Positions 31,164 to 53,188 of a DNA stretch of 64,000 nt are shown here, one piece after another. The stretch is from Alphaproteobacteria bacterium (GTDB lineage Bacteria; Pseudomonadota; Alphaproteobacteria; Caulobacterales; Maricaulaceae): NCBI GenBank assembly GCA_024742735.1, contig JANSXV010000005.1, positions 62,001 to 126,000 on the forward strand. Reading direction: 5' to 3'. The notes beneath the pieces are model-generated. The model had not been told where the DNA came from. It did no database searches and was given only the letters and a program-made list of their open reading frames with translations. The translations under genes and the position numbers were made by a program. Numbering within the stretch: the first letter of the stretch is position 1; each line of letters opens with the position of its first letter.

Positions 31164-31506
31164 CGCCGGTCTGCGGCTTAGGACGCAGGCGTAGAGCAGA
31201 AACGCTGGTGACCTGAGCCCCGCGTCGCCCGTCCTTCAGGCGAGGGTGACGTTGATTTTCGAACGATGGCGGCGGAGTTTGTAAGGCTAGAACTTCGGAG
31301 ACGGCTATTTGCTAGGTTAGGGATGGTGAGGCCGGTTGCTGTATCGGGTTCCCTAACCCTGATGGAGCCAAACTGAGTTAAAGGGGGGGAGCTGGGGGTC
31401 GAAAATCGAGAGCCTTTCCAGATCGCGCAATATGTTAGGCAAAATGTTGGGTGAGATAAAGCCGGTATTGAAAACGCCTTCCTATCCAGATGGATAGCGA
31501 AGCAAA
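31164..31506. other. Gene-free stretch with inverted repeats
   Basis: 343 bases without a plausible gene. It holds a 9-bp inverted repeat GGTTAGGGA (31315-31323) / TCCCTAACC (31350-31358). A short palindrome CTATCC-agat-GGATAG (about 31482-31498) lies just before the attachment core at 31507. The second feature could be a recombinase arm site, which is inference from position. Confidence 0.45.
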
Positions 31507-31523
31507 TGGCGGAGAGGGAGGGA
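31507..31523 (+). repeat. Left attachment site of the island (direct repeat of tRNA-Ser 3' end)
   Basis: TGGCGGAGAGGGAGGGA is identical over 17 bases to 53099-53115, the 3' end of tRNA-Ser including CCA. The match stops at base 18. Together the two copies bound a segment of about 21.6 kb that contains a tyrosine recombinase at the tRNA end, the classic layout of a tRNA-integrated island. Confidence 0.88.
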
Positions 31524-31629
31524 GGGGAAGCTCAAGACCGATCTCCTTGTAACATATTGAAATTGTTGCAGAGGGATCAGAAGGGTCAAGGGAAATTGGA
31601 ACAGTGGATAGGGACGATGTTGGAACAGT

Positions 31630-32274
31630 CTATCGATGAACTGAGGCGTCTCCACATTCCACAATAAGATAGCGAAATAACCCGAAGCTCTTGTCTGCCG
31701 TTCCGTAATCCCGCCACGCAATTTCGTATCGCCCCTCCAGGCTAAGCGGTGCCTCCCGGTTCTTCATCGAACCAGCCCCTGTAGCCTCCGACCAAGCCAA
31801 TGCGCCGGAAACCACTCGACCTTCTTTAATCGAGAAGTCAGCGTCATTCGTGCCCGCAAGCTTTGGTCCAGCCCAATAGGCAGGATCGTTCGTAAGGGCC
31901 ACCACGGCTGCGTAATCAACCTCGGTGGCCCGCATTTTCTCCATCCGGGAGACATCCTTCAGGACGTCATAGCGTCGAACATCATGTGCGCTGTGGTTCT
32001 TTAGGTTGAATTGCTCACCGTGCACTTCTCCCGACGCTTTCCGGGTTAAGTACTTAAGCTCTATCGCCGCCGTTCCGTTAGGAGTGCCGACCCAAATATC
32101 GACCGCAGCGTTGCCCAGAACACGGATCGGGCGTTCTAATCGCACCACGAAGTGAGGCCAAATATTTGTTATCTGCTGTGCAACCGCATGCTGAAAGTCG
32201 GCCTCGGAATGGAATACTGGCCTTTTTTCCGCGAGCAAAGAAAGGGCGTTCGGTATATTTATGACCTTATCCAA
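31630..32274 (-). CDS. PD-(D/E)XK nuclease-like protein, last gene of the defence operon
   Basis: 214 residues. The segment with Asp59 (AAVDIWVG) followed by Glu72-x-Lys74 (AAIELKYLTRK) and an upstream Glu25 fits the PD-(D/E)XK nuclease core. The remaining C-terminal part is unrecognised. It begins 32 bases after the MBL-fold gene and ends about 107 bases before the left attachment site. A role in cutting foreign DNA is likely but inferred. Confidence 0.6.
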   Translation of the reverse strand: MDKVINIPNALSLLAEKRPVFHSEADFQHAVAQQITNIWPHFVVRLERPIRVLGNAAVDIWVGTPNGTAAIELKYLTRKASGEVHGEQFNLKNHSAHDVRRYDVLKDVSRMEKMRATEVDYAAVVALTNDPAYWAGPKLAGTNDADFSIKEGRVVSGALAWSEATGAGSMKNREAPLSLEGRYEIAWRDYGTADKSFGLFRYLIVECGDASVHR

Positions 32275-32306
32275 TCAGCCATACCCCACAGCATACTCGG
32301 TCATTA

Positions 32307-33497
32307 TCATCGCTCGAAATATGTTGTGACTAACCTGGTCGAGCCATCTTCGGACACTTGATGCGGATCGCGACCAAAAACACGTCGATAGTCAGCCTTC
32401 GTTGATGCGTCGGGGTGTTCATATTTGTTGTTTGTTGACGCGGCAGCAAATCCGATAGGTCGGCCGCCAATTCGTTGAAACAACCGCAGATCGCCGCTGG
32501 AGCTTGACCCATGATGTGGCAGCTGAAACACATCAAGGTCCGGAAGCACTCCTGCATAACGAGATAGAAAGGCGTTCCGTCGACGCGTTCGAACGAGGTT
32601 TGCGTCGCCGGTCAGCAGCCAACCGCCTGCGACCTCCGACCAGTGAACTGCTTCCCCTATCTCAAACCACGAAACACTGCGAAGACTGGAGGGGCGCTCA
32701 GGGCCCGCGTAAACAGACATCGAAACCAAATTGTGATCGCTGCTCCAAATTGCGTCATACGCTGCTCGAAGCTTTTCCCGCCCTGCGCTGGACCGAGCTG
32801 CTTCCGCGTAATGCCGGTATGCGTCTTTGCGGCCAAATTCCGTGTGGAGAGAGGCTCGAAATCGTTGGAGCTGAACCGATGATGGCTTGTAAGCTTGCGG
32901 CCAAAACACCCAATAAGAATGGCTGTTTGGAAGCCGGCAGTAGGCGTCCTGACGCCCCACGCCAACAGTACTCTTCTCATTTGATGCACGATGATCCGCA
33001 CTAATTAACCCAGACCATTTATGTTTTGATGGGTCTCTGGGCCGAAGGTCAGGCGGCTCTTCTCGACCTTCTGGCTCGCTATCGGGATCATCTGCGCTAA
33101 CGAACCGAATTCTTTCCACCCCTCGGTCCACAAACCATTTGGCTGGGTCATCTAGAAAATCTCGAAAGGTCGTTCGAAGAACGCCTCTGGCTGCCTCTCG
33201 GGCCAGCATTAATATACGTTCCCTTTGCCCTAGATACGGCAACACCACTTCGGTCACTCTAATTTCCGAAAGCAGAGCATCAACCCCGTTCACATGGTCA
33301 GCATGCAAATGGCTTAGGAACAGCACATCAACATCGCCACCTTGGGCGTGCAGGCGAATTTCATCTTGCAAGGGCCGTTGATCGTCAGAGCCGCAGTCAT
33401 AAACCCAGCGGAAGGGGCCTCGGTCTGTTTCGACCCATCCAATCGTGAAACCACCTTGACCGACTGGGCATTGCTCAATTTGCGCCAATCGCTTCAT
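32307..33497 (-). CDS. ComEC-like metallo-beta-lactamase-fold hydrolase
   Basis: 396 residues. The metal-binding motif is LSHLHADHVNG (HLHADH at 63-68), followed later by LLTGDANL and QLPHHGSSSSGD. That combination is typical of the soluble MBL domain of ComEC/Rec2 relatives, several of which are nucleases. No membrane segments are present. Its start overlaps the GIY-YIG stop by 4 bases, so both are made together. The substrate is unknown, and a nucleic-acid or nucleotide target is the natural guess here. Confidence 0.8.
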   Translation of the reverse strand: MKRLAQIEQCPVGQGGFTIGWVETDRGPFRWVYDCGSDDQRPLQDEIRLHAQGGDVDVLFLSHLHADHVNGVDALLSEIRVTEVVLPYLGQRERILMLAREAARGVLRTTFRDFLDDPAKWFVDRGVERIRFVSADDPDSEPEGREEPPDLRPRDPSKHKWSGLISADHRASNEKSTVGVGRQDAYCRLPNSHSYWVFWPQAYKPSSVQLQRFRASLHTEFGRKDAYRHYAEAARSSAGREKLRAAYDAIWSSDHNLVSMSVYAGPERPSSLRSVSWFEIGEAVHWSEVAGGWLLTGDANLVRTRRRNAFLSRYAGVLPDLDVFQLPHHGSSSSGDLRLFQRIGGRPIGFAAASTNNKYEHPDASTKADYRRVFGRDPHQVSEDGSTRLVTTYFER

Positions 33498-34234
33498 TTT
33501 GGAAAACCATGATACATGAACGGGTTGGCAGCTCCGCGCTTCTTGGGCGGAACTCGTTTGTGGAGATAGTGGACCTTAGTTGCCCCGGTGGCTTCCCGTC
33601 CTTCAAAGCCGATGCGTTCCGGTATTTCCTCATCAAGAAATGGGAAGTTTTCCGGCGTCGCTCTGAGCCATCTCTCTGGCTCGAAGACCCCAACAATCAA
33701 TCCCTTGAGGACCGCGACCACCAGCTCTGCGCGCTTTGCCTTTGGGAGGCTCATTCGCCAAGTGCCGCGGACAGCATCATAGATGGACCGATCTGCTGCC
33801 GAATTGTTGATGACGATTGAAATCGTGCGGTGCTTAAACACAACCTCTTCAGCGGAGTACGCTCGAACAATTTCTTCCGCGTGCCGGATGCCCCGGTCGT
33901 TGGACCCATGCCCCGCAGTCGCGTTGGTCAGGCCAGGAAAACAATCCAGCAGAGCGGCTTCCACCTCTAGCGCGACAGCCTCGGTCATTCCGTGGCGGTG
34001 AATAACGTGCTGAACGTCAAAGCCAGCATTTTGAATTTCGCGAATTCGTTTGAGCTTGCCGGAGAGGTTGTCGTCAGAGCTCGGCAGGACCCCGCGGGCA
34101 TGTGAGAAGACACGGTCGCCTTTCCCTTTGCCGACATAGAAAGTTTCCCCGGATCGCGGGTCGATCAGCCGGTAGACGTAAAACTTGATCGCGTCATGAA
34201 CCTCGGGTGGGAAAGCGGTGGCTGCCAAATTCAA
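33494..34234 (-). CDS. GIY-YIG nuclease (LEM-3-like)
   Basis: 246 residues. KFYVYRLIDPRSGETFYVGKG (about 17-37) is a GIY-YIG start with Tyr19 and Gly35. Arg41 follows (GDRVFSHARG), and a glutamate is in ALEVEAALL. This form is seen in LEM-3-type GIY-YIG proteins. The second half (about 130-246) is unrecognised. It overlaps the upstream gene by 4 bases and the downstream MBL gene by 4 bases. Confidence 0.8.
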   Translation of the reverse strand: MNLAATAFPPEVHDAIKFYVYRLIDPRSGETFYVGKGKGDRVFSHARGVLPSSDDNLSGKLKRIREIQNAGFDVQHVIHRHGMTEAVALEVEAALLDCFPGLTNATAGHGSNDRGIRHAEEIVRAYSAEEVVFKHRTISIVINNSAADRSIYDAVRGTWRMSLPKAKRAELVVAVLKGLIVGVFEPERWLRATPENFPFLDEEIPERIGFEGREATGATKVHYLHKRVPPKKRGAANPFMYHGFPK

Positions 34235-34860
34235 GCCTCCCGAGCCGGATCATCGAATAAGCGATACCCAGACCGAAGCGCATCCACGGTCGGCTTTGGC
34301 GTCAGGACTTCCACCTCATCCGGCATGCTGCGGTCTTGGAGCGAGTATCCGTTGAAACTCCACGCCCATATTTGGCCGCCCCGGACAAGCAAGGGTGGCC
34401 CGCTTGGCGTCGCCTTGAAGAACGCTCCCTCAGGAAGCGAAGCGAATTCCGCCCGATGTGTAACCTGAGCCCTGGAGCGCGAATTTACCCGTGCCTTGTG
34501 GAGCAACTTATCCATCTCAGGCGCCGGAATTTTTTGGTCGCCTATTCCCTGTCCAACCGAGAATGCAGCCTGAAACCTGTTGAAGTCATCGCGGCGACAT
34601 TGCGCGCATGGGCGATGCCCGGCCGCCAAGGCCACAGCCTCATCGGAAAAGAAGAGCTCGGTATACCAGTTGGGTCGCATCAGCGTCCGCCGCACACCTT
34701 TGTATGAGAGCGTGCATGTCACCCACGCCTGATGCTTCCAGCGGGCGGTTCCTAGCTGACGGTCAGCATCGTGCAGAATGCCCCTGTTCCCCATCAGCGT
34801 CCCGCGGGCTGTATGGGCGACAATTTCGCCGGTCGGCGTCACGCGATTTTGGAGAGGCAT
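34231..34860 (-). CDS. Conserved hypothetical protein with an Ada-like Cys motif
   Basis: 209 residues. The central part TELFFSDEAVALAAGHRPCAQCRRDDFNRF (Cys85-x2-Cys88) resembles the zinc-binding N-terminal domain of Ada, which has GYRPCKRCRP. Cys49 (WVTCTL) could be a third ligand. The opening residues with HTARGTLMGNRG recall a widespread family of unknown function. No enzyme motif is visible. It lies 4 bases after the preceding gene and overlaps the GIY-YIG gene by 4 bases. Confidence 0.6.
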   Translation of the reverse strand: MPLQNRVTPTGEIVAHTARGTLMGNRGILHDADRQLGTARWKHQAWVTCTLSYKGVRRTLMRPNWYTELFFSDEAVALAAGHRPCAQCRRDDFNRFQAAFSVGQGIGDQKIPAPEMDKLLHKARVNSRSRAQVTHRAEFASLPEGAFFKATPSGPPLLVRGGQIWAWSFNGYSLQDRSMPDEVEVLTPKPTVDALRSGYRLFDDPAREA

Positions 34861-34864
34861 CCAA

Positions 34865-35851
34865 CTATTCCCAGACTGCCGATGGTGACAGCGTAAATGA
34901 GCGCCGTTCCTCGAGGTCTTCTAAAAATTCGTTCCACAAATCACGCCCCAGACGCCGCGCACAGAATTGACCTGCGCATGACAGAAATGCGCGAAGAACA
35001 AGATCGAGGTCACTGACAAACTGTGCGGCGACTTTTTCGGGTTCGGCACCATATCCAAGGAACAGGGCGTCGCGGTAGTTCGCCTTTCCACGATACCGGA
35101 ACGCCATATGCAGGAAACTGATGGAACGCCGTCTCAGCACATTATCTCGAACCTCACGCGCGGCTTTGGTCCGAAAATTTTCAACTCCCAGATCGCGGAA
35201 TTGTTTGGTTTGCCGGACACTTTCCTCGGCGCGCCACGACCACCATTCAATACTGCCAGAAATATAGGCCAAATGTGCCGCCTCAGCTTCCTCAGGCGTA
35301 CTCGGCACTTGCTCGGCCATTTTGAACGTCCCGACACGTCCTTTCATTGCCGCGATCTCAGCTTCTGCGTCTGCCTTCAAAAGGGATGAAATGCGATAAT
35401 CGAACGGTGACGGTATCAAACCTCGCGCAGCGATTTCCTGAGAAAACAGGTTCGCCGTGCTCGAATGGTCGTCCTGAGTTGCTTTGGTTTGAGCGGTAAC
35501 CATTGCGGAACTGGCAGCGTAAATCCCGTAGTACCACGTCACGATCCCCACACGCATGACGTCCACAGGATGCTCCACGGCAGCCATCGTCGAAAGCGCA
35601 CTACCTTGATGTAGCGCCAAGAGAAGCTGATCTAGGACGCTGTTCGCCTGTTGATCTGTCAACGCCGGATTTGGTCGTGCAACGCCTGCCGAAAATGCCT
35701 TCGCTGTTGCGGAAGAAATGCCTGCATTTTCCACTATCAGCGCCAAAGCCCGCATCCAGTTCACTGTTCCAGGAAGAGCGTAAACCGGATTGGGTACACC
35801 GTTTGGTTCAGACAACGTCCCCTGTTCTGTGAGCCGCTTATATAACGCCAT
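34865..35851 (-). CDS. Helical protein of unknown function in the defence operon
   Basis: 328 residues from ATG 35851, two bases after the DUF499 stop; a TTG three codons' worth earlier is also open. It is predicted to be mainly helical. The stretch VTWYYGIYAASSAMVTAQ followed by GLIPSPFDYRISSLL recalls HEPN-like proteins, but no clear RX4-6H catalytic motif is seen, so that reading is weak. The tight spacing to the ATPase gene suggests a subunit or effector of the same system. Confidence 0.55.
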   Translation of the reverse strand: MALYKRLTEQGTLSEPNGVPNPVYALPGTVNWMRALALIVENAGISSATAKAFSAGVARPNPALTDQQANSVLDQLLLALHQGSALSTMAAVEHPVDVMRVGIVTWYYGIYAASSAMVTAQTKATQDDHSSTANLFSQEIAARGLIPSPFDYRISSLLKADAEAEIAAMKGRVGTFKMAEQVPSTPEEAEAAHLAYISGSIEWWSWRAEESVRQTKQFRDLGVENFRTKAAREVRDNVLRRRSISFLHMAFRYRGKANYRDALFLGYGAEPEKVAAQFVSDLDLVLRAFLSCAGQFCARRLGRDLWNEFLEDLEERRSFTLSPSAVWE

Positions 35852-35853
35852 GG

Positions 35854-38800
35854 TCAATCAAACCGCTGGGTGTCAAACCCAAGGTCCTTGGCGTTGTCGC
35901 GGACGATCTCTTCGACATCCTCCGGGAAGCCGCTCCTCGATGTAGCGGTGATTTCGAGCGTGATTTTGAGATCGACGCCATCGGCGCTGTCGAGCTCTCC
36001 GATCACATCGTTGAAAATCAGCCCTGCCTTTGACGCTCCGCGCAGGGCGTCCAGGGAGATGGTGCCGGTGAACCGGGTCGGGCGCGCCTTCTCGGGCTCC
36101 TTGACGCCTCCAGGAGCGCTGGGGCGGCCTGGCTGGGCTCCGCCCTCATCTCCGGCTTCACTCGCTGGCTGAGCGGCCTGCAATTGCGTTTCGGCGACCT
36201 CCCGCCGCACCAGCAACTGACCAGAGCCGAAGCGGACGACCGCCGACTGGTTGAACTTGAGGTCGGAATATTTCCCGTCTTGTTCCGCGCTGGCGATGCC
36301 GAAGGCCACGTTCCGCTCATCGAGATCGACGAGGGCGTCCGCAAGCGCATCGGCGAGGACCTGATCATCCCGCAGGCGCTCCATGTAGGGAAACTCGAAG
36401 AACCAGTCCTTAACCTGATCGACCGAGAGATGCGACTGTTCGTCCGGCCAGAGATCCCGCAGGCGGTCGGTGAGGCTCGCTTTGCCAAGGCGGGAGATGA
36501 CGAAGTCGGCTTCCTGGGCCTTGTCCCAGGCGGCTTCAGCTGGTGAGCGTTGCCCGGTCGGGCGAAGGCCGGTCCTGTCGAGTATCAGCGTCGCCCCGCC
36601 GTCCGAAGACGGTTCCGGCGAGAGAAGGTGGCTCCAGGCCTTCCGGATCGCCTGGCGCGCGCCCTTCATGGCCTCGGCGGCGCGTGAGGCCGCGTCCTGT
36701 TTCTGGCTTTCGGTCAGATCGAGCGCGCGGTCTTCGGAAATGCCTTTCCATGCGAGGGCGCGACGCATCGTCTTGCGTACCTCTTCGAGCTGGCGCTCAT
36801 CCGCGGCCAGGAAGACCAGAGCGTTACGGAAGCGTCTTTGCCCCCCGGCCCGCCGAGAAACCGCGTCCAGGGCCGCCAGATAGGCCGCTGAGGCGTCTCC
36901 CTGGCTGTACGGCGTGTCAGGCCCCAGAATGACCAGACGCGTCGCTGGGCGGTCCTCTACGTCCTGCGGCGGATAGGGTGCGGTGTGCACCCCGGACCAC
37001 TGTCCGCGCGCCCGTTCGTCCTCCTGGAGCGCCTTGACGATCTCGGCGTCGATCTGATCCGCATCGACATCACCGGCTCGATTGGCAGCCAGCTTGTTCA
37101 GTGTTGGTTTCGAACCAAACCAATAGCGGCCTTCCGCCTCATAGAGGTAGGAGGATTGTTCTGACAGTTCGCGGAGCGCGTCGCCGAAGATTGAAACCTG
37201 ATCGCCGGGCTGCACACAGGCGAGGCGCAGCTCCGGCCCGGTCAGACCGCCACGAGCATCGCCCTGCGGGGCCGTACAGACGAAAACCGCGCGAGAGGCC
37301 CGGCTAGCGATACGCTTTTCGCGGTAGCGGGTGCGGGACATCTCGATCCGGACCGGGAGCGAGCGGTCTCCATCAACCTCGGCATCGACGATGGAGCCCC
37401 AGGCTGGACTATCGAGCGGCTCGATCAGGGCGCCCCGGACTTCCGGGTCATCGATCTGCAAGGAGCTCGGCAGGATCAGCGGATCGTCCCGGCCTTCCCG
37501 ATAACTGGCGTAGATGGTGCGCGCCAGGAGAGACAGAACGCCGCGCGTCCGCTGGAACTTGTCCAAGCCGCCCCATTCCGAGGAGAGCTTGTCGAACAGC
37601 ATTGGGTGGACGGGATAAGCTTCAAAAAGCTTCTCTTCGTAGTCCTTCTCCGCTGTGCCTGCCGGGAAGTCGCCCTTGTTGTCGCGGTAGATTTTGCGGA
37701 AGGCCTCGACCGTCCGTTTGCGGGCCTTTTCGCCGTTATCGTCCAGCTCCTGGAAAAGACGGCGACGGATCACCGCGTAGGTTTCAGACCCTTGCGCCGG
37801 CTGCCAGGAGGATTGGGTCCGGCCAAACAGTTTTTCGAGACGCCGTAGCGTATCCAGACCCTTCTCGCCGCCACCGGCCTCGATATCGCTTTCCGGCAGT
37901 GAGCCGACAATTAGGGCGTTGTCAGACTGAGCCGCGGCCTCTGTCATCGACTGGATGAAGGAGAGGTGCGCCTCATAGCGCTCATTGTCGAGCTGGCGGA
38001 CATAGGCGACCAATTCATCCAGCAGGATGAGTGACGGGCCACCTGCTGCATCCAGGACGCGCTTGAACGCCTCACCGCCCGGATTGGTTCCGGCGGCTTC
38101 TGCTGCTTCGATGATCGAAAGACCTTCGCGGCCCGCCAGAGAATGCGCAAGATAACCCCAGAGCGTCCGCACAGGATGACCATCGACGGTATCCAAGGGC
38201 ACATCAGGCCCCTTATCGGTACCGACGAAGACAGCGGTCTTCACATTGCCGAGGGACAGCCCGTCGAACTGAGACTTCATCGAGGCCAGCGCTTCTACAC
38301 TCGCCGGATCGCCCAGGCGCGCCATGTGGAGCAGCGAGAGCAAGGTGTGCGTCTTGCCGCCACCGAAATTAGTCTGAAGGCCGATGGTCGACGGGCCGCC
38401 TCCTCCACCGAGCCGTTTGGCGGCATTCCCCAGGGTCAGTTCCAGGCCGTGGGTCAGATGCGTGGCGTTGAAGAAGGCGCGGCTATCCTTGTAGGTCTCA
38501 GACCCTTCGCCACGCGCCGCAGCGGCAAGATTGGCGGCGAAGGCGTCCTTGTTGAGCCGTCCTTCCAGTACATCATCGCGCGGTGGACAGGCGATCCGCC
38601 AGGGCGTCAGGCCTTCGACGCGTCCCCCGCCCAGGAAATCGGGCTGCTTTTCTTCCTCGGTCTTTTTGGTGACCGCCGGAGCGGCGGGTTTGTCGTCAGC
38701 GGCAGCGGGCTTCTTCAGCTTGCCTTCCGCTTCCAGGCGGCGGCGCACCATGTCGTTCTGGAGGCCATCGAACAACGCCTTGGCGGCCTCGGCCTGCTGC

Positions 38801-39156
38801 TTGGCGAACATTCCAACCAAAAGCTCATGCGCGCCGGACAGGGCTCGCAGCGTGATGCTGTCGTCGATAGCGCCCGACGAATGGGAATACTTGTTGCGGC
38901 CAGCGAGAGCGGCAGACGCGGCGTCGCGCATCTCCGGCTTCAAATGGTTCTGGAAGACGTCCCGCCAATTATTGATGATGACGTAGAGCAAGGCATAGGC
39001 ATCAAGATCGGCCTTCGGCGCCAGGCTGTTGGGCACCCGCGCCTGCATGCGCCAATGCGTGCCGTATTGCTTTTTCATATACTCGTTGACGAAGGGCAGC
39101 GCGCCCTTCTCCACGAGCTCCAGCATCGTGCCAATCCGGTCCCTGTTTGTCGTCAT
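35854..39156 (-). CDS. DUF499 ATPase with N-terminal HEPN-like domain (HmaC-like)
   Basis: 1100 residues. The N-terminal 120 residues look like a Swt1-type HEPN domain with RNKYSH (Arg87 to His92), an RX4H motif. A charged linker (about 145-175) leads to a DUF499 AAA-type ATPase: Walker A TNFGGGKTH (262-270) and Walker B-like SLILLDELVAYVR (about 380). The C-terminal part holds further DUF499 sequence. DUF499 ATPases travel with DUF1156 methylases in defence islands. It follows the methylase by 34 bases. Antiviral action is inferred from family and context. Confidence 0.88.
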   Translation of the reverse strand: MTTNRDRIGTMLELVEKGALPFVNEYMKKQYGTHWRMQARVPNSLAPKADLDAYALLYVIINNWRDVFQNHLKPEMRDAASAALAGRNKYSHSSGAIDDSITLRALSGAHELLVGMFAKQQAEAAKALFDGLQNDMVRRRLEAEGKLKKPAAADDKPAAPAVTKKTEEEKQPDFLGGGRVEGLTPWRIACPPRDDVLEGRLNKDAFAANLAAAARGEGSETYKDSRAFFNATHLTHGLELTLGNAAKRLGGGGGPSTIGLQTNFGGGKTHTLLSLLHMARLGDPASVEALASMKSQFDGLSLGNVKTAVFVGTDKGPDVPLDTVDGHPVRTLWGYLAHSLAGREGLSIIEAAEAAGTNPGGEAFKRVLDAAGGPSLILLDELVAYVRQLDNERYEAHLSFIQSMTEAAAQSDNALIVGSLPESDIEAGGGEKGLDTLRRLEKLFGRTQSSWQPAQGSETYAVIRRRLFQELDDNGEKARKRTVEAFRKIYRDNKGDFPAGTAEKDYEEKLFEAYPVHPMLFDKLSSEWGGLDKFQRTRGVLSLLARTIYASYREGRDDPLILPSSLQIDDPEVRGALIEPLDSPAWGSIVDAEVDGDRSLPVRIEMSRTRYREKRIASRASRAVFVCTAPQGDARGGLTGPELRLACVQPGDQVSIFGDALRELSEQSSYLYEAEGRYWFGSKPTLNKLAANRAGDVDADQIDAEIVKALQEDERARGQWSGVHTAPYPPQDVEDRPATRLVILGPDTPYSQGDASAAYLAALDAVSRRAGGQRRFRNALVFLAADERQLEEVRKTMRRALAWKGISEDRALDLTESQKQDAASRAAEAMKGARQAIRKAWSHLLSPEPSSDGGATLILDRTGLRPTGQRSPAEAAWDKAQEADFVISRLGKASLTDRLRDLWPDEQSHLSVDQVKDWFFEFPYMERLRDDQVLADALADALVDLDERNVAFGIASAEQDGKYSDLKFNQSAVVRFGSGQLLVRREVAETQLQAAQPASEAGDEGGAQPGRPSAPGGVKEPEKARPTRFTGTISLDALRGASKAGLIFNDVIGELDSADGVDLKITLEITATSRSGFPEDVEEIVRDNAKDLGFDTQRFD

Positions 39157-39190
39157 GCTATCCCTCCGGCGATCTGCGCCGCCTCAATTC

Positions 39191-42106
39191 TCAAAATAAG
39201 TTTGATTGTTCAGGCGCTGGCGAATAACCGCGCTCGTTCGCCTCGTCTGCCGCCGTCTCGATACCCGGCCAGCTGGTCTGAAGCTGGTTCCAGACCAGCG
39301 CTTCGTCATTCTCGCCACGCGTGGTCGCCATTTCGAACATTCGTTCGGCGATCAGGAGCACGTCTGCCGCCGCCGTCGGCTTCTCGGCCAGCAGCTGACC
39401 GCACTTCGCCAGTCCGCCATCTTCGGCGGTCAGCGCCCGCGCCAGATGCTGGGCCATCTCCCAGAGCGTGAAAGTCGCATCCTTGGACGGCGTCCAGCCG
39501 TCTTCCATCTCACCGCGGGACAGGAGCTTGGCGTCGCCTTGCCGGGCGTGAAACAATCCGGAAGCGTTGAGCGAATTGATATCCAGATTGAAGCCTTGAA
39601 GCTGCTGGATTGCATCGCCTGCCCTACCCTTGTGGAGCCCGTAGCCGAATTGCTGATACCATTCGAGGGCAAAGCGGGTTTCCGCATCCAAATCCTCGGT
39701 GCCTTCGGTTAGGATGGCGTCGATCTCACGATTGATCAGCGCCAAGGCGGTCGCCACACTCATCGGGCTATCGTCGCTTTCGCGGATCATGGCGTATTTT
39801 GAAAACACGCCGATGCCTGGGCCGATAGCAGCCTGGCGGCGGTCGGGGAGCGGAATGCCAGCTTTCTGGTGATCCAGAATTGCCTGCTGCATGGCCGGGC
39901 GAAGTTCACGGAGGAAGTCTCGGCGGTTGATGGCACCAGCCGTCGCTGCACGAGGACGGCAAACGAGAACTACGGAAGCGGCCAGAGCATTAGTGCCCGA
40001 CGCGATCATCCGGTTTGATAGCTCTGTGCGGATTGGCCAGGTGCCGTCTATTTGCAACCCAGCGTCAACAACCGCTTGAAGGAAGGCTGCCCAACCCGGG
40101 GAAAGAACACCATCCTTCGAAACTTCCGACTGCTTGAATGCATAGTAAACCGCCAGCGGGAAATCTTGGTCCGACATGGATCGAAAAGCCTGAATGGCGT
40201 CGCGCATACCGGACATAAAGTGCTGTTCTGCCGACTTTCGACCACCGTGCCGGTACGGGGAGGCGACAAGCTCGTCCAGCTTTGGGGTCAATGAGCGCCG
40301 GAACAATCCGCTAAATGTTCCCTTCAAGGTTCGGCGAAGCCAAACGTAGAAGAAATCTGAAAGGTCCGCATAACCGATGTTGTCATAGTAGGGCGGATCG
40401 GTCGAAATAATGGGTGGTATGGCCGCGCTTTTTACGTTTTGCGCTGTGATCAATTCAATCTGACCACACGCACCACCAGACTGCCACCCCTCGATGCTTT
40501 CCGCTGTCCAGTTTACCGCTCCCAAAAATGAACCGGTACCCTCCAATAGCGTGTTCAGCTCAGCATAGTCCCAAACCATCGCGAGCGACTGGCGTGCAAA
40601 GGTTGGGCGGGTACTGTCGCGCGCGGTAAACCAACTACATAGTGTAGACCCTCTATCCGCGAGCTTGGACAGTGCAAATCCTAGATAGATGGAAATCGCC
40701 TGCGAATAAGCGCGCGCTCCTGCGCCGCCATCTTCTACGGAATTTGGATCGGTTCGCTGACACCAATATGAGCTGCGAGACGCATCCCCCATAACCTCTT
40801 CCTCAACAGATTTTATCAAATCTGAGAAGGTCGAAAGTGCGGTCAATTGCCGAGGACTGAACAGCTTGTCAAAACTGTCTAGCCCATAATTTGCAACCCA
40901 GAAATTTCGAGGATCGTCCGGCAGCTTTTGCTCAATTTCTGGGAGCTCTGGGCGGGGCACCGAGCTAGCGGCTTCATGTTCTGCTGTGGGCTCCAAATAC
41001 ACGCGACCACTTGTACCTTCTGCCACTCTGGCGATTAATCGACTTCTCAGGTTGCCGCTTAATGCTTCGGCTTTGAGGTAATCAGGCGAAATTGCAGCCC
41101 CAGAAAAGGCACAAGTGAAGTTGGCTCCGCGCCCTGCCTGGGTACCGGATTTTGCTTTGGCGAGAGCATCCTTTGTGTGCGGCCCGCTGACTAACTTAAA
41201 GGTCCAGCCGTCTGTTGAATGAGGGTCGAGCGTTGGTCGCGCAATAACTTCTCTGCCAGGCTTGGAAGAGATTATCTGCGTCGACATTAGCGGTGTGTGC
41301 CGCCCGTTTTGCGCTGGGTCAGGAGAAGCTACAGTTCTCGCCCAAAGCCATGCCACGGTACGCAATTCGTTGCCGTTTTCGCCAATCGACAGCGGGTACA
41401 TTCCAGCTAGAAGCTCATGCGCTTTGTCTCGCACACGTGAGCCATAGTAGCGAATATCATTCGCCAAGCCGCGGGCACCATCCCAGCTCTCGGCAATCAA
41501 CCCCTGCCCCTGGCGCTCTGGACATACTGATGGCGCACCGTCAAACCGCGCAGGAAAGTCCACGAGCGATTTACTAATCAGTGCTGATACCGGGTTTATG
41601 TCGGAGCCTTTCGCGAGCAACCCCAGACGCTGGGCCTCCAGCGGGATGGACCCACCCCCGCAGAACGGGTCATAGACCGGCGGCGCATATTCCTGAAGGT
41701 AGGCGAGGACGGCCTTGTCATCGGATCGCGCTGGCGGTTCCTCACCACGCCCCCAAGCCACCGAGCGTGCAATCTCCCATCGGGCCGCCTCAATTGCGGA
41801 TTTGAAACGCGTCTGATCCTTGGCGTCGGATTTCGGCCATTCGACCATGTTCTCGATCACGCCATGCAAACGGCGGCGCTCCCGATCCTGATCCTCTTCT
41901 GTCTTGAACTTTTCCGGCCAGGCTGACGGGTCATCGACTAGCTGCGCAAAGATCACCGCCCGGCAAGCCGCCAAAGGCCGCCGCGCCCACCACAAATGCA
42001 GGGTCGACGGATGCCCATGACGAACTGACTTCTCCCGGCTCGACGCGGCATTGATCGCGTCCAGGGGCAGGGAATGTTCGATGAGTTTCTTGCGGATGGT
42101 GGTCAT
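39191..42106 (-). CDS. DUF1156 DNA adenine methyltransferase (HmaB-like)
   Basis: 971 residues. The DUF1156 signature LPLDAINAASSREKSVRHGHPSTLHLWWARRPLAA occupies residues 13-47, here cited as LPLDAINA and HPSTLHLWWARRPLA. The SAM site is DPFCGGGSIPLEA (146-158), and the N6-adenine catalytic motif is DPPYYDNIGYADLSDFF. It probably marks host DNA for the linked helicase/ATPase/nuclease genes. It starts 12 bases after the upstream nuclease gene. The middle of the gene (about 40.3-41.4 kb) is visibly less GC-rich than its ends. Confidence 0.9.
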   Translation of the reverse strand: MTTIRKKLIEHSLPLDAINAASSREKSVRHGHPSTLHLWWARRPLAACRAVIFAQLVDDPSAWPEKFKTEEDQDRERRRLHGVIENMVEWPKSDAKDQTRFKSAIEAARWEIARSVAWGRGEEPPARSDDKAVLAYLQEYAPPVYDPFCGGGSIPLEAQRLGLLAKGSDINPVSALISKSLVDFPARFDGAPSVCPERQGQGLIAESWDGARGLANDIRYYGSRVRDKAHELLAGMYPLSIGENGNELRTVAWLWARTVASPDPAQNGRHTPLMSTQIISSKPGREVIARPTLDPHSTDGWTFKLVSGPHTKDALAKAKSGTQAGRGANFTCAFSGAAISPDYLKAEALSGNLRSRLIARVAEGTSGRVYLEPTAEHEAASSVPRPELPEIEQKLPDDPRNFWVANYGLDSFDKLFSPRQLTALSTFSDLIKSVEEEVMGDASRSSYWCQRTDPNSVEDGGAGARAYSQAISIYLGFALSKLADRGSTLCSWFTARDSTRPTFARQSLAMVWDYAELNTLLEGTGSFLGAVNWTAESIEGWQSGGACGQIELITAQNVKSAAIPPIISTDPPYYDNIGYADLSDFFYVWLRRTLKGTFSGLFRRSLTPKLDELVASPYRHGGRKSAEQHFMSGMRDAIQAFRSMSDQDFPLAVYYAFKQSEVSKDGVLSPGWAAFLQAVVDAGLQIDGTWPIRTELSNRMIASGTNALAASVVLVCRPRAATAGAINRRDFLRELRPAMQQAILDHQKAGIPLPDRRQAAIGPGIGVFSKYAMIRESDDSPMSVATALALINREIDAILTEGTEDLDAETRFALEWYQQFGYGLHKGRAGDAIQQLQGFNLDINSLNASGLFHARQGDAKLLSRGEMEDGWTPSKDATFTLWEMAQHLARALTAEDGGLAKCGQLLAEKPTAAADVLLIAERMFEMATTRGENDEALVWNQLQTSWPGIETAADEANERGYSPAPEQSNLF

Positions 42107-42118
42107 GAAATGGCGTGC

Positions 42119-42748
42119 TCAAATATCTTCTGATGGATTGGGATAGACCTTGCCGTCAGGTCCGACAAACAGGGCGGTCACCTGAACGCGCTGTTTCGCC
42201 AGCTCCGGCAATCGGTCCCACAGGCCGCGAAACTGCTTCATGTCCGGCAGGGCGATGGAATAGCGGGCATCCGGATCGTCCATACGCTGGAGAAGCTCGC
42301 CCAGCATGGCGATGAAGTAATTGACGCGCATGGCCTGGCGCGATCCACAGCCCTTCGCCTCGATCAGCCAACGCTCCTGACCACGCTGGGCGATGATGTC
42401 GACACCCCGCTCACGGCCCCAGGCAACCTCGACAGTCCAACCGTCATTCTCAAGCCATGTCTTGATCGCGGCTTTAACTTCATCCTCGGACAATCCATCG
42501 CTTTCATCCGACGTGGGGATAGGTTCCGCCCGCTGCGTCACAATCGGTGCATCCCCGATCCAGTTCCGGATCGTACCAGAGGCAGGATCGGACAACCGCT
42601 TGATTGCTCCAGCAGATGCCATCCGGCGGCAATACTGATTGGCCTGGCTGGGATGATCGGCGCGGCTTTTAAGCCGGTCGGTCAGCTCCCGATCCGTCTG
42701 GCCGTCCTTTGCCCGCAGCGCATCGATGATCTGGTCAGAAAACGCCAT
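42119..42748 (-). CDS. Winged-helix plus PD-(D/E)XK domain protein
   Basis: 209 residues. The first about 65 look like a winged helix (ELTDRLKSRADHPSQANQYCRRMASAGAIKRL). After a linker, the second half has GVDIIAQRGQERWLIEAKG with Asp117, Glu130 and Lys132 in the spacing of a PD-(D/E)XK nuclease, followed by conserved-looking helices. Its ATG shares one base with the helicase stop. It may be the DNA-cutting or DNA-reading part of the system. Confidence 0.75.
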   Translation of the reverse strand: MAFSDQIIDALRAKDGQTDRELTDRLKSRADHPSQANQYCRRMASAGAIKRLSDPASGTIRNWIGDAPIVTQRAEPIPTSDESDGLSEDEVKAAIKTWLENDGWTVEVAWGRERGVDIIAQRGQERWLIEAKGCGSRQAMRVNYFIAMLGELLQRMDDPDARYSIALPDMKQFRGLWDRLPELAKQRVQVTALFVGPDGKVYPNPSEDI

Positions 42749-45700
42749 CAGACGAGCCTCGGCTCGGCCGCTCCCTGGGCGACCAGGTCACGAACCAGAA
42801 AAGCGCGCTTGGTGTCCTTGAAATCGCCCTGGTCCCAGAAGCGGCTGGCCGGGTCGGTGATGTAAACCGGCCGCTGGGCGAAGCCATCTTCGACCGGTAC
42901 GACAACCAGATGATATTGCTCCCCGGCATTGCGCGCCTGGAGCATCTCATTCTTCGTGACGAAGATTTCCTTGCCGCCGACGACGCGCGCCTTCACCTCC
43001 AGCATCAGCATGCGGTTGTCGCTGGTGAAGCTCTCAATGTCCCAGCCGCGATTGAGGTGGGAAACATCAACCGGCGTACGACCGGCGGCGCGCTCGGCGG
43101 CAATAACAGCGTCCATGCCGATTTTCTCGCTGATGGAAGTATCCTCGGCCATGCCGTCCGGCCCTACATCCTCGCCCTTGAGACGCGCCAGAAGGCCGCT
43201 GGGGACGACCAGCGCACCGCCGCATACTTCTGGTGCCCGCGCAGACAGGGCGCGCTCCTTTTCGATCTCGGCGAGCCGCTGATCGAGACGGTTGGTCAGG
43301 CGCTCGACCCGCTCCTGCGCTTTGCGCTTAGGCAGGGTCTCGTCCTTGCCCGCCCGGATCGCCGTGTCGTGCTTGGCGATGCGATTGTCCCAGAAACGGA
43401 TTTCCTTGCCGAGCCGGTAGCGAACCTCCCGCTCGACCTTCTCCAGATGCTCCAGCCGCCGCGCCTTGATCTGTTCCAGGTGCTTGGCGACCAGATGCTC
43501 GGCCACGAAGGCGCGCGCCCGTTCCGCCAGATCGCCGGTAAGCCAGCCAGCTTCAAGCAACGGGGCAACCAGGGCTTCCTCGCCGTCTTCCAGGGGTCGC
43601 AGGTCGAGATAGGGGGCAGCGCCCGCCGACTTCGCCTCGCCGCGTTCATTCATAAGGACAAAGTCTATCCGCCGGGACACTGACCGCGCCGCTCCGTTGG
43701 GAGCCAGCCGACCGTCCGTGACTTCATGCTCCGCCATAACGAGCAGCTGAGGCTCAATGCCGGGATTAATCTCGTTGACCAGGACAGTACCCTGTTGAAG
43801 GGCCAGGCCGTAATTCTGAAGCGTCAAATCGAGCACCGCTTCCAAGAGCGGATGGCCCGGAGCAATCAGAGCCGCCTGAGGCTCCTTCCCGCGATGGGCC
43901 TTGTCGAAACAGACCCGCTCATAGCGCTCGAGCACCGGATCGCCAGACCCGGTATGTTGATCGTGCGCCCGCACCGAAGCCGGGACGCGCAGGATTTCAT
44001 ACCGACCCGTCTCGCGCTCTTCCATCACACCGCCCAATCGGCGGAAAGCCTCCTGGAAGAATTGCCGGACATAGTGCGGCTGGAGCCGCTCCGCCGAGGC
44101 CCGTTCCATTTCGAGGCGAAGCTTCTCCACATCGCCGACCGACAAGCTCTCCATCGAGAGCTGGGCACGCCGGGAGAGCTCCTCGATATGCTCGCGATTG
44201 ACCGCGCCATCGACCGCAATCTGGAGCCGTTCCCTCACGGCCGGATCATCCCCATAGCGGACAGCCTCAAACAGGAGATCATTGAGTGACTTCTGTTCGA
44301 ACAGCTCGCCCAGCACATCATAGACCTTGCCCTTGAGCGCCTTGCGCGCCTCTTCCAGCTTTTCCAGCAGGCGCTCATAGACCTGGCCTTCACGGGTTTC
44401 GCCCGCGACGAGGTTGAAGAGGTGGCAAACTTCCGTCTGGCCGATCCGGTGAATACGCCCGAAGCGCTGTTCCAGCCGGTTCGGGTTCCAGGGCAGATCG
44501 TAATTGATCATGAGGTGCGAACCGCGCTGGAGGTTCACGCCTTCGCCCGCCGCGTCATTGGCGATCAGGACCCGCACCTCCGGGTCGTCATTGAAGGCCG
44601 CCACCGCAGCCCGGCGATGCTGGCGCGGCACGCCGCCATGAATGACCCGTACCGCATTAGGATCGCCGATCCGCGCCGTGATCTTCTCCTGGAGATATTC
44701 CAGCGTGTCCTTGGGTTCGGTGAAGATCAGGACTTTTTTCTGCTTGCCCTCTACCGGGTCATAAACCGGCGGTTGGTCCAGTATGGAGGCCAGTTGGCTC
44801 CATTTCGTGTCTTCGCCTGACTGGCAGACAGCATAGGCCTGCTCTTCGAGGATTTTCAGGCTGGAGATTTCCGCCTCCAGCTCGGCCAGTGTCCGGGCGC
44901 TTGACGCCTGATCGATGGCGTCCTCCTCCATCGCCTCGCGTTCTTCCTCGGACAAATCCTCCAGATCATCGAGATCGTCCGGGATGCGCGTCGCCGGGTT
45001 CAGTTCGAGCAGACCGCCGCCCTGGCTGCGAATGCGCTCCTCATCGAGGCGCGCTTCCAGGCGCTCCTTACGCCGTTTCAGCGACCGCCAGATCGCCCGC
45101 GGTGATGAGGCCAGACGACGCTGGAGGGTTTGCAGGGCGAAGCCGACATTATTGCGCCGGCGGCCGCCACCCTCCTCGATATTGTCCGCCCGGTTCATTT
45201 CCTCGCGGACATAGTCCGTCACCGCCGTGTAGAGCGCGGCTTCCGCTGGGGAGAGCTTGTAGCTGACCGTCTTGGCCACGCGCTCCGGAAAGAGCGGGCG
45301 TCCATCGAACCAATAGAGCTCTTCCTTCACTAGTCGGCGCATCAGGTCGCTGGGGTCCGCGCCGCGCATGCCCTCACGGAATTTGCCCTCGAACCGGTCC
45401 GCATCGAGCAGGGACAGGAAGAGCTGGAAGTCCTCCTCCTTGCCGTTGTGCGGCGTGGCGGTCATCAGCAGGAGATTGCGTGTCTGTTCGCCCAGAAATT
45501 TGCCCAGACGGAAGCGTTTGGTGAACTTCGCCTCATTGCCGAAATAGCTCGCCGACATGCGGTGCGCTTCGTCGCAGATGATCAGGTCGAAGTCAGCGGC
45601 CGCCTTGATCTTCTCCTGAAGCTCCTCGGACCGCGAGGCCATGTCGAGGCGCATGATCAAGCGGTCATGCGAGGAGAACGGATTGCCGCCATAGGAGGCG

Positions 45701-46260
45701 TTGATCATGTCGCGCGTGACGATCTCGAAGCTGAGATCGAACTTTTCCTGGAGCTCGTCCTGCCACTGCTCGACCAGCGATCCCGGCGCCACGATCATGC
45801 AGCGCTGCAGATCCCCGCGCAGGGCCAGCTCTTTGATCAGAAGGCCCGCCATGATCGTCTTGCCTGCCCCAGGGTCATCGGCCAGCAGGAAGCGCAGCGG
45901 CTGGCGGGGCAGCATCTCGCCATAGACCGCTGTGATCTGGTGCGGAAGCGGTTCGATAGCCGCTGAGGTGAGTGCGAGGTAGGGATCAAAAAGGTGAGCC
46001 AGCCGAATACGGCGCGCCTCAGCGGCCAGCCGGAAGTCCTCGGCGTCGCCATCCAGGGCAAAGGGCCGGGTTGCCGAACCCGAAGAGAGAGCGCCTTCCT
46101 CGTCGCGCGTGACAATCCGCTCGTCGAGGCGCTTGTTGTCTTTGTAGACCACCTCGACCCGGTCCGAACCCAGCCATTTCACGCTTTTGACAAGCGCAAC
46201 GCCGTGCGGGCTCAGCCCTTCAACGGATATTCCTTCGACGATCTCCTCGAGCTTCAGCAT
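42748..46260 (-). CDS. SNF2-type helicase with C-terminal DUF3883 (HmaA/DrmD-like)
   Basis: 1170 residues. Helicase motif I is DDPGAGKT (128-135), motif II DEAH (230-233), motif III MTATPHNGKEEDFQLFL, and motif VI QRFGRIHRIGQ. A helical middle region and a coiled coil (about 920-1010) follow. The C-terminus has DUF3883 (WDIESFTSDNRMLMLEVKAR), a restriction-enzyme-like fold. GGGGG lies just before ATG 46260. It is the first gene of the tight operon. The architecture matches helicases of DISARM (DrmD) and of helicase-methylase-ATPase systems. Confidence 0.9.
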   Translation of the reverse strand: MLKLEEIVEGISVEGLSPHGVALVKSVKWLGSDRVEVVYKDNKRLDERIVTRDEEGALSSGSATRPFALDGDAEDFRLAAEARRIRLAHLFDPYLALTSAAIEPLPHQITAVYGEMLPRQPLRFLLADDPGAGKTIMAGLLIKELALRGDLQRCMIVAPGSLVEQWQDELQEKFDLSFEIVTRDMINASYGGNPFSSHDRLIMRLDMASRSEELQEKIKAAADFDLIICDEAHRMSASYFGNEAKFTKRFRLGKFLGEQTRNLLLMTATPHNGKEEDFQLFLSLLDADRFEGKFREGMRGADPSDLMRRLVKEELYWFDGRPLFPERVAKTVSYKLSPAEAALYTAVTDYVREEMNRADNIEEGGGRRRNNVGFALQTLQRRLASSPRAIWRSLKRRKERLEARLDEERIRSQGGGLLELNPATRIPDDLDDLEDLSEEEREAMEEDAIDQASSARTLAELEAEISSLKILEEQAYAVCQSGEDTKWSQLASILDQPPVYDPVEGKQKKVLIFTEPKDTLEYLQEKITARIGDPNAVRVIHGGVPRQHRRAAVAAFNDDPEVRVLIANDAAGEGVNLQRGSHLMINYDLPWNPNRLEQRFGRIHRIGQTEVCHLFNLVAGETREGQVYERLLEKLEEARKALKGKVYDVLGELFEQKSLNDLLFEAVRYGDDPAVRERLQIAVDGAVNREHIEELSRRAQLSMESLSVGDVEKLRLEMERASAERLQPHYVRQFFQEAFRRLGGVMEERETGRYEILRVPASVRAHDQHTGSGDPVLERYERVCFDKAHRGKEPQAALIAPGHPLLEAVLDLTLQNYGLALQQGTVLVNEINPGIEPQLLVMAEHEVTDGRLAPNGAARSVSRRIDFVLMNERGEAKSAGAAPYLDLRPLEDGEEALVAPLLEAGWLTGDLAERARAFVAEHLVAKHLEQIKARRLEHLEKVEREVRYRLGKEIRFWDNRIAKHDTAIRAGKDETLPKRKAQERVERLTNRLDQRLAEIEKERALSARAPEVCGGALVVPSGLLARLKGEDVGPDGMAEDTSISEKIGMDAVIAAERAAGRTPVDVSHLNRGWDIESFTSDNRMLMLEVKARVVGGKEIFVTKNEMLQARNAGEQYHLVVVPVEDGFAQRPVYITDPASRFWDQGDFKDTKRAFLVRDLVAQGAAEPRLV

Positions 46261-46406
46261 TGCTCCCCCATCCAGGCTGCGAGCCGCAGCAACTAAATTG
46301 TTAATATCGTTACCGGCTGCTCCGCTCGCGGTCTAGTTGCCAACTGGCTTTATTCCGACCGGTGGAAGAGCAAATCAGATCAGGATGGAGGCACAAGACG
46401 ACAAAA

Positions 46407-47675: not shown

Positions 47676-47751
47676 GAAATTTCCAAGGAAGGAGACGTGA
47701 TAACAACACGGCCGTCCTTGGGGCGCGCCACAGATGCGGAGGCGCGCAGAC

Positions 47752-51277: not shown

Positions 51278-52990
51278 CTAGTTTTTCGCGTTCCCGATCA
51301 AGAGCGTTTTCACACCTTCGCTCAGCCCGAAATCCACCCCGTTCATGAGCTTACCGAGGGCCTGCAAATTCGCTCCCTGCCCATAGCCTCCGGTTACGCT
51401 TTTGTCCGTATGCCCGACGAACTCGTGTAGGCGCTGTTCAGGGACATTCGCGCTCCGCATCGCGTCTACGAAGGCATGTCGGAAGCTATGGAAGGTCAGG
51501 TCGGGTCCGGTCTTCACGCCGATCTGCACCAGGTATTTGTTCAGCTTCTTGGAAGCGATTGCGGTCAGATTTCCCGGCGGCCCCAGCTTGATCTCAAAGA
51601 AGAGGCGCTTTTCGGCTTTCTTAGCCCGCGCCTTCAGCCACTCCCTCAGTCCGAAGTCGAACAGGTCGGGGTGTATCGGCACCCGCCGCTCAGAGGCTTC
51701 AGTTTTCAGGTCGAGCTCGCCCCGGATATCGAAGAAGGGTACGTCGTAATCCACATGCAGGTCGGACCGCGTCAACTGGATCAGCTCGCCTTCTCGCATC
51801 CCGGTGTAGAGCCCGATCAGATAGACCCAATAAAGGCCGTCCTGGGCCTTGTGCTTGCCTGGGAGATACCGCCTGTGCCGCGAACTAAACCCGCTATAGA
51901 GCGGTGAGGAGAAAATCTTGTTCAGCTCATCTTGCGTGAACGGCCGGCGCGGCTTCTTCAGGCTCGGCTTTGGAGCGGCGATCTTTACGGACGCGCCTGG
52001 CACACCGTCGATATAGCCTTCCGCGTCCAGCCAGATCAGGAAGGACTTCACGTAGCTAAAATACTTGCCCGAGGTCTTTGGGTTCAGACGCTTCTCGCCC
52101 TCTTTCGCGGTCAGCCGTTTGGGATACTTCGGGTCGACCTCCGCCCGTGGTTTCAGCGCCTCGATCACGTCCCTGACATCGCGAACATGGGCGCTGGTCA
52201 GTTGTTCGACCGTGATCGCCTCGCCCCATGTTTTCATCGCGATCTGCAGGATGCGGATTTTCTCGTCGCGAGTTCTGGGCTTCCACGCTCGGGGGCCTGA
52301 TGAGTACGCGTTGATATAGAGATCAACGGCCTCTTTGACCGGCAGCCCCGCCTCAATTGCAATTGATTGCAATCCCGGAACGCTGGGACGCGTGGCTGGC
52401 ATTTCTACCGGCACGAAGAGTTCGTCTTGCGGGCTGTATTTTCCCAGGATGTTGCTCTGCCGGAAGAGGGTGAACCGGGCATGCTCGATCTGCGCTCGCG
52501 CAATCCCCTCACAAAGCGCCCGGAATTCATCGCTTCCATGTGGCGGCATCTGGAAGCCGTGTGCCTCAGCAACGGTCATCGCTTGCGATTGGACACCAGA
52601 CTTGAACGTGCGCGACTGAACCTGACTTTCCAGAGCGTTGATGAACTCTTCAGCCATAACCTCCTGGTGTCCGGCATCATAGTCCAGCTCGCCCTCCGCA
52701 ATTGGCGCTGGTGAGCGATAGCTTTGGGCCAGATCGTGATAGAACGCCTGCGCGATTTCACGCGCATCGTCGATGCTTAAGTCCTTCATACGCCGCAGCT
52801 TATCGCAGAGCCCGTGAAAGGCGAGCGTGGCGTTAAGCACGCGCCGCGCCGCTAGCTTCGGATCGCGTGTTCTGACCGACCATCTAAGCTCTTTCCGCCG
52901 GAGCAAGCATTGGACGTCCGCCGGGACAGGCAAGCGCACCTGGAAGCCCCGGCCACGCGCTACGAGATGCTGAACCCTGCGCCCGCTCAA
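51278..52990 (-). CDS. Tyrosine recombinase (island integrase)
   Basis: 570 residues, starting at TTG 52990 (GAGGG upstream). An N-terminal DUF6538-like arm (HLVARGRGFQVRLPVPADV) and a SAM-like core-binding domain precede the catalytic domain. Catalytic residues are seen in TGMREGELIQL (Arg), TFHSFRHAF (His, Arg) and GHTDKSVTGGYGQG (His and nucleophile Tyr). It is 108 bases from the tRNA-Ser 3' end and is the enzyme expected to recombine the 17-bp repeats. Confidence 0.93.
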   Translation of the reverse strand: MSGRRVQHLVARGRGFQVRLPVPADVQCLLRRKELRWSVRTRDPKLAARRVLNATLAFHGLCDKLRRMKDLSIDDAREIAQAFYHDLAQSYRSPAPIAEGELDYDAGHQEVMAEEFINALESQVQSRTFKSGVQSQAMTVAEAHGFQMPPHGSDEFRALCEGIARAQIEHARFTLFRQSNILGKYSPQDELFVPVEMPATRPSVPGLQSIAIEAGLPVKEAVDLYINAYSSGPRAWKPRTRDEKIRILQIAMKTWGEAITVEQLTSAHVRDVRDVIEALKPRAEVDPKYPKRLTAKEGEKRLNPKTSGKYFSYVKSFLIWLDAEGYIDGVPGASVKIAAPKPSLKKPRRPFTQDELNKIFSSPLYSGFSSRHRRYLPGKHKAQDGLYWVYLIGLYTGMREGELIQLTRSDLHVDYDVPFFDIRGELDLKTEASERRVPIHPDLFDFGLREWLKARAKKAEKRLFFEIKLGPPGNLTAIASKKLNKYLVQIGVKTGPDLTFHSFRHAFVDAMRSANVPEQRLHEFVGHTDKSVTGGYGQGANLQALGKLMNGVDFGLSEGVKTLLIGNAKN

Positions 52991-53098: not shown

Positions 53099-53115
53099 TG
53101 GCGGAGAGGGAGGGA
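53099..53115 (+). repeat. Right attachment site within tRNA-Ser 3' end
   Basis: TGGCGGAGAGGGAGGGA, identical to 31507-31523 and, for 15 bases, to 30251-30265. It is the encoded CCA plus the 3' acceptor arm and part of the T-arm of tRNA-Ser, so integration restores a working tRNA. Confidence 0.88.
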
Positions 53116-53188
53116 TTCGAACCCTCGGAACGCTTGCGCGCTCAACGGTTTTCGAGACCGCCCCGTTCGACCACTCCGGCACCTCTCC
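53099..53188 (-). tRNA. tRNA-Ser (anticodon CGA)
   Basis: A 90-base class II tRNA with CCA encoded. The acceptor GGAGAGG pairs with CCTCTCC, the T-arm contains GGTTCGAATCC, and a long variable arm (TTGAGCGCGCAAGCG region) is present. The anticodon loop CTCGAAA gives CGA (53152-53154 on the plus strand as tcg), which reads UCG serine codons. It is the integration target of the island. Confidence 0.96.

Follow-up and report, generated by a model that had tools for sequence, protein, structure and literature searches.

The operon described here lies at positions 31630 to 46260 of a 64,000-nucleotide (nt) stretch of an alphaproteobacterial contig (JANSXV010000005.1, positions 62,001 to 126,000; in the following called the window). 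Very probably it consists of a complete Hma core, carried on an island at a tRNA-Ser gene, which has been extended by separate, stacked defence genes within one operon. Nine leftward open reading frames (ORFs) were confirmed from the ORF list and its translations (Table 1). Three of them encode the core in the order HmaA-(P0002)-HmaB-HmaC; P0002 occupies the slot between HmaA and HmaB, and P0005 to P0009 form a tail behind HmaC. An earlier reading of the letters (the original prediction) had counted five accessory genes, which is correct for the genes behind HmaC, while with P0002 there are six extras.

The Hma core and the layout of the operon

PADLOC finds all three Hma components in this one locus (HmaA with 1477 bits over residues 1-1162, HmaB with 961 bits and HmaC with 717 bits from residue 183 on). 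Judged from these sequences the core is a complete Hma system, i.e. a Type-1 BREX-related (BR) system, and as such a standard one of an already known kind. The system was named Hma in PMC8565338 and later Type-1 BREX-related in PMC12839542. The Hma-like core and the nuclease-rich remainder of the original prediction are supported, and its labels SNF2/DUF3883, DUF1156, DUF499, GIY-YIG and metallo-beta-lactamase (MBL) agree with profile matches and with the alignment to the solved structure 9u75 given below.

Within HmaA, Helicase_C and NOV_C exceed their Pfam cut-offs (NOV_C 60 bits, cut-off 22.1); the nuclease D and ExK are retained in 17/17 aligned rows and the DEAH box in 15 of these, the other two being without that region. 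HmaB is above the Pfam cut-off for DUF1156 and DPPY is present in 18/18 aligned rows, a motif which we take to agree with an N6-adenine assignment. This enzyme was described as a 5-methylcytosine (m5C) enzyme in PMC8565338 and as an N6-adenine enzyme in PMC12839542, which also gives a C-terminal PD-(D/E)XK domain on the helicase for 79% of Type-1 taxa. For HmaC, both HEPN_Swt1 (49.1 bits) and DUF499 (77.2 bits) lie above the Pfam cut-off, and the Walker A motif GGGK is kept in 23/23 aligned rows. The stretch before residue 183 contains the HEPN domain, which the original prediction had missed; its motif is RNKYSH at residue 87, and among the 21 of 23 rows listed for it 14 show RN...H, one is degenerate (RSAWRS) and six are without the region. 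All these motif counts exclude rows of at most 100 bits or at most 800 amino acids (aa).

The locus thus shares with Hma/Type-1 BR systems the order HmaA-HmaB-HmaC, the NOV_C helicase, the DUF1156 methylase and the HEPN-DUF499 ATPase (PMC12839542, PMC8565338), and in 2013 an SNF2 helicase fused to DUF3883 had been described with a HEPN-DUF499 protein as its neighbour (PMC3710099). Neither PglZ (Type 3) nor DUF3780 (Type 2) is among the matches listed for the nine proteins (for HmaA the best 25 of 55 PADLOC matches). Membership in DISARM was rejected. An SNF2 helicase related to DrmD is common to both, but the DrmD equivalog of NCBIfam reaches 394 bits against a cut-off of 610, which makes the earlier wording "DISARM-related" too loose, and DrmA, DrmB and DrmC are the best match for none of the nine proteins (PADLOC, NCBIfam).

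Table 1. Genes of the operon and features of the surrounding island, with positions in the window
Feature	Position	Strand	Description
HmaA	42748..46260	-	1170 aa, SNF2 helicase with C-terminal NOV_C (DUF3883) PD-(D/E)XK domain
P0002	42119..42748	-	209 aa, putative PD-(D/E)XK protein in the HmaA-HmaB slot
HmaB (P0003)	39191..42106	-	971 aa, DUF1156 DNA methyltransferase
HmaC (P0004)	35854..39156	-	1100 aa, DUF499 AAA+ ATPase with N-terminal Swt1-like HEPN domain
P0005	34865..35857	-	328/330 aa, helical, predicted HEPN-like fold, no library family name
P0006	34231..34860	-	209 aa, PDC-S40 family, invariant C49, C85, C88
P0007	33494..34234	-	246 aa, CMoRE / PD-T4-3 GIY-YIG endonuclease
P0008	32307..33497	-	396 aa, ComEC-like metallo-beta-lactamase-fold hydrolase
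P0009	31630..32274	-	214 aa, PD-(D/E)XK-like family
Tyrosine integrase	51278..52990	-	570 aa, Phage_integrase 49.9 bits, above cut-off
tRNA-Ser (CGA)	53099..53188	-	right island end; ARAGORN
17-nt copy of the tRNA-Ser 3' end	31507..31523		probable left island end; identical to 53099-53115

The ORF coordinates also bear out the earlier description of nine leftward genes with gaps of at most 34 bases and several overlaps of 1-4 bases: four junctions are overlaps of 1-4 nt and the widest gap is 34 nt. HmaA and P0002 overlap by 1 nt, followed by gaps of 12 nt (P0002/HmaB) and 34 nt (HmaB/HmaC). HmaC and P0005 overlap by 4 nt, or are separated by 2 nt if P0005 starts at the ATG two codons further on; then come a gap of 4 nt (P0005/P0006), two overlaps of 4 nt each (P0006/P0007 and P0007/P0008) and a gap of 32 nt (P0008/P0009). 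None of the five tail ORFs is interrupted, and from HmaC on four of the five junctions are overlaps or gaps of at most 4 nt. Such tight spacing is common in operons and a weak guide to joint function. A consensus scan of 31000-48200 found four promoter-like sites (5.3 expected) and 17 terminator-like sites (17.5 expected), both at chance level. Co-transcription of the nine genes is likely.

Linkage of the extra genes to the core

Linkage between the core and the extras was assessed in 155 loci, which were compared with the window proteins by phmmer (E<=1e-3). These are the window's own locus (L052), 24 other HmaC loci and 130 loci that each hold one of the six extra genes (85 for P0005, 22 for P0006, 8 for P0007, 4 for P0008, 8 for P0009 and 3 for P0002). 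The HmaC loci were taken from 15 of 22 other genomes of the class (16 regions; the seven omitted genomes gave short weak matches of at most 97 bits) and from 8 of 140 matching plasmid records. For PDC-S40 (P0006) 20 regions from 35 other matching genomes were used, for CMoRE (P0007) 7 of 11 other matching genomes, and for the MBL protein (P0008) all three other matching genomes of the class. Flanks are mostly 8-14 kb, 1.5-6 kb for L199 and L221-L229, and less on short contigs.

In the own locus, which served as a positive control, all nine proteins were recovered. Compared with other Hma systems it has one additional gene in the HmaA-HmaB slot and another five after HmaC, and none of the 24 other HmaC loci carries any of these six extras. 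From the other side, HmaB or HmaC is absent from all 130 extra-bearing loci (P0005 0/85, P0006 0/22, P0007 0/8, P0008 0/4, P0009 0/8, P0002 0/3). The original prediction had set beforehand that accessory homologues lying mostly away from the core would speak against a single system, and this is what the 130 sampled loci show. Two different extras are found together in no locus outside L052. Because of this lack of co-occurrence with the core in the sampled loci, we regard the extras as separate layers. Two Bradyrhizobium plasmids carry both P0005 and HmaC, and one Rhodobacter plasmid carries both PDC-S40 and HmaC, each time tens to hundreds of kb apart.

It might be argued that the nine genes represent one integrated, undescribed Hma variant with several effectors downstream of one sensor, as the single direction, the gaps of at most 34 nt and the four overlaps would suggest, and nucleases embedded in BREX-related loci are indeed described as recurring backup effectors (PMC12839542). 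However, an extra together with HmaB or HmaC was seen in 0/154 other loci, and the closest core found (L044, HmaC with 1258 bits) has neither a slot insert nor any of the extras. We therefore consider such a variant improbable, and the earlier claim that the second half of the operon is part of a larger undescribed system is left without a second example. It is just as unlikely that the tail is cargo which piled up transiently at the end of the island, neither expressed jointly nor selected for a function, and that its overlaps are due to dense packing. The tail does separate the core from the attachment repeat, ending 106 nt short of the latter, and its GC contents at third codon positions (GC3) differ among themselves (0.49-0.65 in the five genes), but all its ORFs are open and junctions as tight as these would seldom result from insertion alone.

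Several points weigh against our preferred reading of a Hma core with separate stacked layers. Selection of the operon as one unit could explain the overlaps and the absence of a clear internal terminator equally well, and the GC3 range of the three core genes (0.61-0.77) overlaps with that of the tail. An HmaA-related helicase is located near P0005 in L145 (56 bits) and L170 (16 bits), and near the MBL gene in L220 (146 bits). P0005 is not always alone, as one neighbour cluster recurs in eight of its loci; furthermore, a same-strand ORF within 60 nt was found upstream in 13 and downstream in 18 of the 74 P0005 loci (out of 78) that a simple gene caller could place. Finally, only samples of loci, with flanks of limited length, were compared; several of the 24 HmaC loci (L045-L051) are distant or come from short contigs, and remote homologues may escape phmmer at E 1e-3.

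The tail genes and the slot gene

The HEPN-like family of P0005 is the most novel part of the operon. No match was found in Pfam (including its HEPN families), PADLOC, NCBIfam or PHROGs, and it is with respect to these four libraries that we call the family nameless. The predicted model is nearly all helix, in line with the earlier label "helical unknown", which on the basis of this model can be refined towards HEPN: its best match is a HEPN protein, AF0298 (2hsb), although this Foldseek match is not significant (E 1.8). In comparison with AF0298, which typifies the HEPN-T clade, P0005 is more than twice as long and has extra helices. A classical Rx4-6H motif was not found, as no conserved His follows a conserved Arg at that distance in the 64 rows of the family alignment (A2: P0005 and 63 of 78 loci, 15 being excluded as partial, frame-broken or near-duplicate). 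HEPN members without this motif exist (PMC3710099). The model matches no viral model with E <= 0.001, the sequence matches no solved structure, and single-sequence scans of genome contigs and viral contigs gave no relatives. In 385 genomes of the class and 99 of the family only the own copy was detected. The alignment query (A1) gave 86 relatives, of which the best 80 were kept, corresponding to the 78 distinct loci.

In 40 of the 74 placed loci no ORF on the same strand lies within 60 nt of P0005, whether upstream or downstream. One relative on a Vibrio plasmid is flanked by repeats which we take to be attC-like, and this copy looks like an integron cassette. With some hesitation, and at rather less than even chances, we propose that P0005 belongs to a widespread, self-sufficient HEPN-fold defence family without a name, with a site like that of AF0298, which is carried as a single gene by plasmids, islands and integrons and in this operon provides a second RNase layer, translationally coupled behind the Hma core, with CMoRE covering those phages with modified DNA that Hma cannot cut.

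P0006 matches PDC-S40, a candidate defence family of PADLOC (267.7 bits, residues 1-200 of 209), and the three cysteines given in Table 1 are invariant in 22 sequences; a literature search on the name PDC-S40 found no paper. The earlier label "Ada-like" goes back to a sub-threshold match, the Ada metal-binding domain of Pfam scoring 15.8 bits against a cut-off of 23 with 21 residues matched, and among solved structures the Ada matches by sequence are weak at best (E 0.076).

P0007 is by its sequence a member of the CMoRE (PD-T4-3) family. It matches PD-T4-3 of PADLOC with 301.5 bits, and residues 5-241 of 246 align to residues 8-258 of the solved CMoRE 9u75 (E 1.6e-71), so that the alignment spans the GIY-YIG domain as well as the C-terminal sensing domain. 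The likeness extends over almost the full length and includes the tyrosines of GIYxY-YIG. A difference is seen in the acidic loop described in PMC12923530, where P0007 has two consecutive acidic residues in the aligned stretch in contrast to four in 9u75. CMoRE is a modification-dependent type IV enzyme which cuts DNA with 5-hydroxymethylcytosine (5hmC) and its glucosylated form (5ghmC), and all 274 CMoRE systems in the same paper are termed single-component (PMC12923530); activity in the native host has been reported as well (PMC12409345). The words GIY-YIG and MBL occur nowhere in the main text of PMC12839542 on the Type-1 BR systems.

In P0008, Lactamase_B is above the Pfam cut-off (43.7 bits) and ComEC_Rec2 of NCBIfam below its own (44.6 bits); the motif HLHADH was read in the translation. 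Relatives are scarce in the class (4/337 genomes at E 1e-10, the own genome included), and a single-sequence scan of viral contigs gave none.

Two proteins, P0002 and P0009, had been labelled PD-(D/E)XK. Neither has a match in Pfam, NCBIfam, PADLOC or PHROGs, so no library supports the label, but the D...ExK residues on which it can be based are invariant: D59...E72xK74 in 8/8 aligned rows for P0009 (alignment A3, without L224, which is apparently the same as L223) and D117...E130xK132 in 4/4 rows for P0002 (P0002 and three plasmid proteins). The model of P0009 (predicted local distance difference test, pLDDT, 82.3) gave a Foldseek list from the PDB with HincII first, followed by Hjc and RecU-type entries, none of them significant (best E 0.063). 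Relatives of P0009 occur on viral contigs in five loci, and on a Paracoccus plasmid (L197, 7995-8624) one follows immediately after phage genes for portal, protease-capsid and DUF2190 proteins. Single-sequence scans of viral contigs and of phages with P0002 gave no relatives.

The slot between HmaA and HmaB recurs in other loci, its content does not. It holds a 424-aa gene in L040, a 210-aa gene in L231 and a 239-aa gene in L233, and is without an insert in L037, L038, L044, L232, L235, L236 and L237. Twelve slot proteins were compared with P0002; the best E value in that small set was 0.026, which is no convincing relative. In L036 (4105-6079) the slot contains a gene for an AAA_21 ATPase together with one for a 213-aa protein, which by eye shows an HNH-like pattern. 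The two are reminiscent of a Septu pair within the Hma core; Hma is often found near Septu type I (PMC8565338). A two-gene pair containing ASCH occupies the slot of L042 (4674-5444) and, in the form of its relatives, that of L230 (1443-2323). This pair recurs in two different Hma loci, while beside a core the extras of the window were seen nowhere else.

The island and the proposed division of labour

The island comprises about 21.6 kb. Besides the nine-gene operon, the integrase and at least three other genes (46407-50708) lie between the tRNA-Ser gene and the 17-nt repeat. The GC content is about 0.66 in the left flank and drops to 0.54 in the tail, and GC3 is about 0.85 in two flanking chromosomal genes. 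The tRNA-Ser gene and the right flank are retained in 13/13 same-genus loci compared. A clean empty integration site was found in none of these 13, and sequence related to the left flank (28671-30185) was present in L208 alone, at a distance of about 6 kb from the tRNA gene. A second partial copy of the tRNA-Ser 3' end (15 nt, 30251-30265) is separated from the island end by a sulfotransferase gene (30453-31163) and is perhaps the remnant of a second element.

On the same strand as HmaA and 146 nt upstream of it a 360-aa protein is encoded (46407-47489, -), which could be on the same transcript; it has no match in Pfam, PADLOC, PHROGs or among plasmids. A reverse-transcriptase-like protein (47940-49220, +) matches RVT_1 below the cut-off (E 1.9e-6, 28.2 bits, cut-off 29.6) and has no plasmid relative at E 1e-5. 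Its catalytic box is FADN; that of reverse transcriptases is usually YxDD or FxDD.

In the mechanism we propose, the Hma system would have been extended at two cargo-tolerant places, between HmaA and HmaB (P0002) and behind HmaC (P0005-P0009), and the short overlaps would bring the extras under the expression of the core. HmaB would methylate host adenines, HmaC together with HmaA would scan and then cut unmodified DNA with the NOV_C nuclease, and the HEPN domain of HmaC might act as a last-resort RNase. Phages protected from Hma by their base changes would be met by CMoRE, which on its own would cut their 5hmC or 5ghmC DNA. P0005 may add another HEPN-like protein, distinct from HmaC, that perhaps acts as an RNase in abortive infection; P0002 and P0009 could serve as auxiliary DNases, and the PDC-S40 and MBL proteins are further candidates for autonomous defence. 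These layers would be co-expressed but would not form one complex.

If the layers work in this way, one operon unites a modification-dependent nuclease with a restriction-like core. Hma and CMoRE would then be complementary layers, with CMoRE closing the gap that modified phage DNA leaves in a methylation-based defence. P0005, in turn, represents a HEPN-like family without a library name from 78 loci (best 80 of 86 relatives) that is open to single-gene testing.

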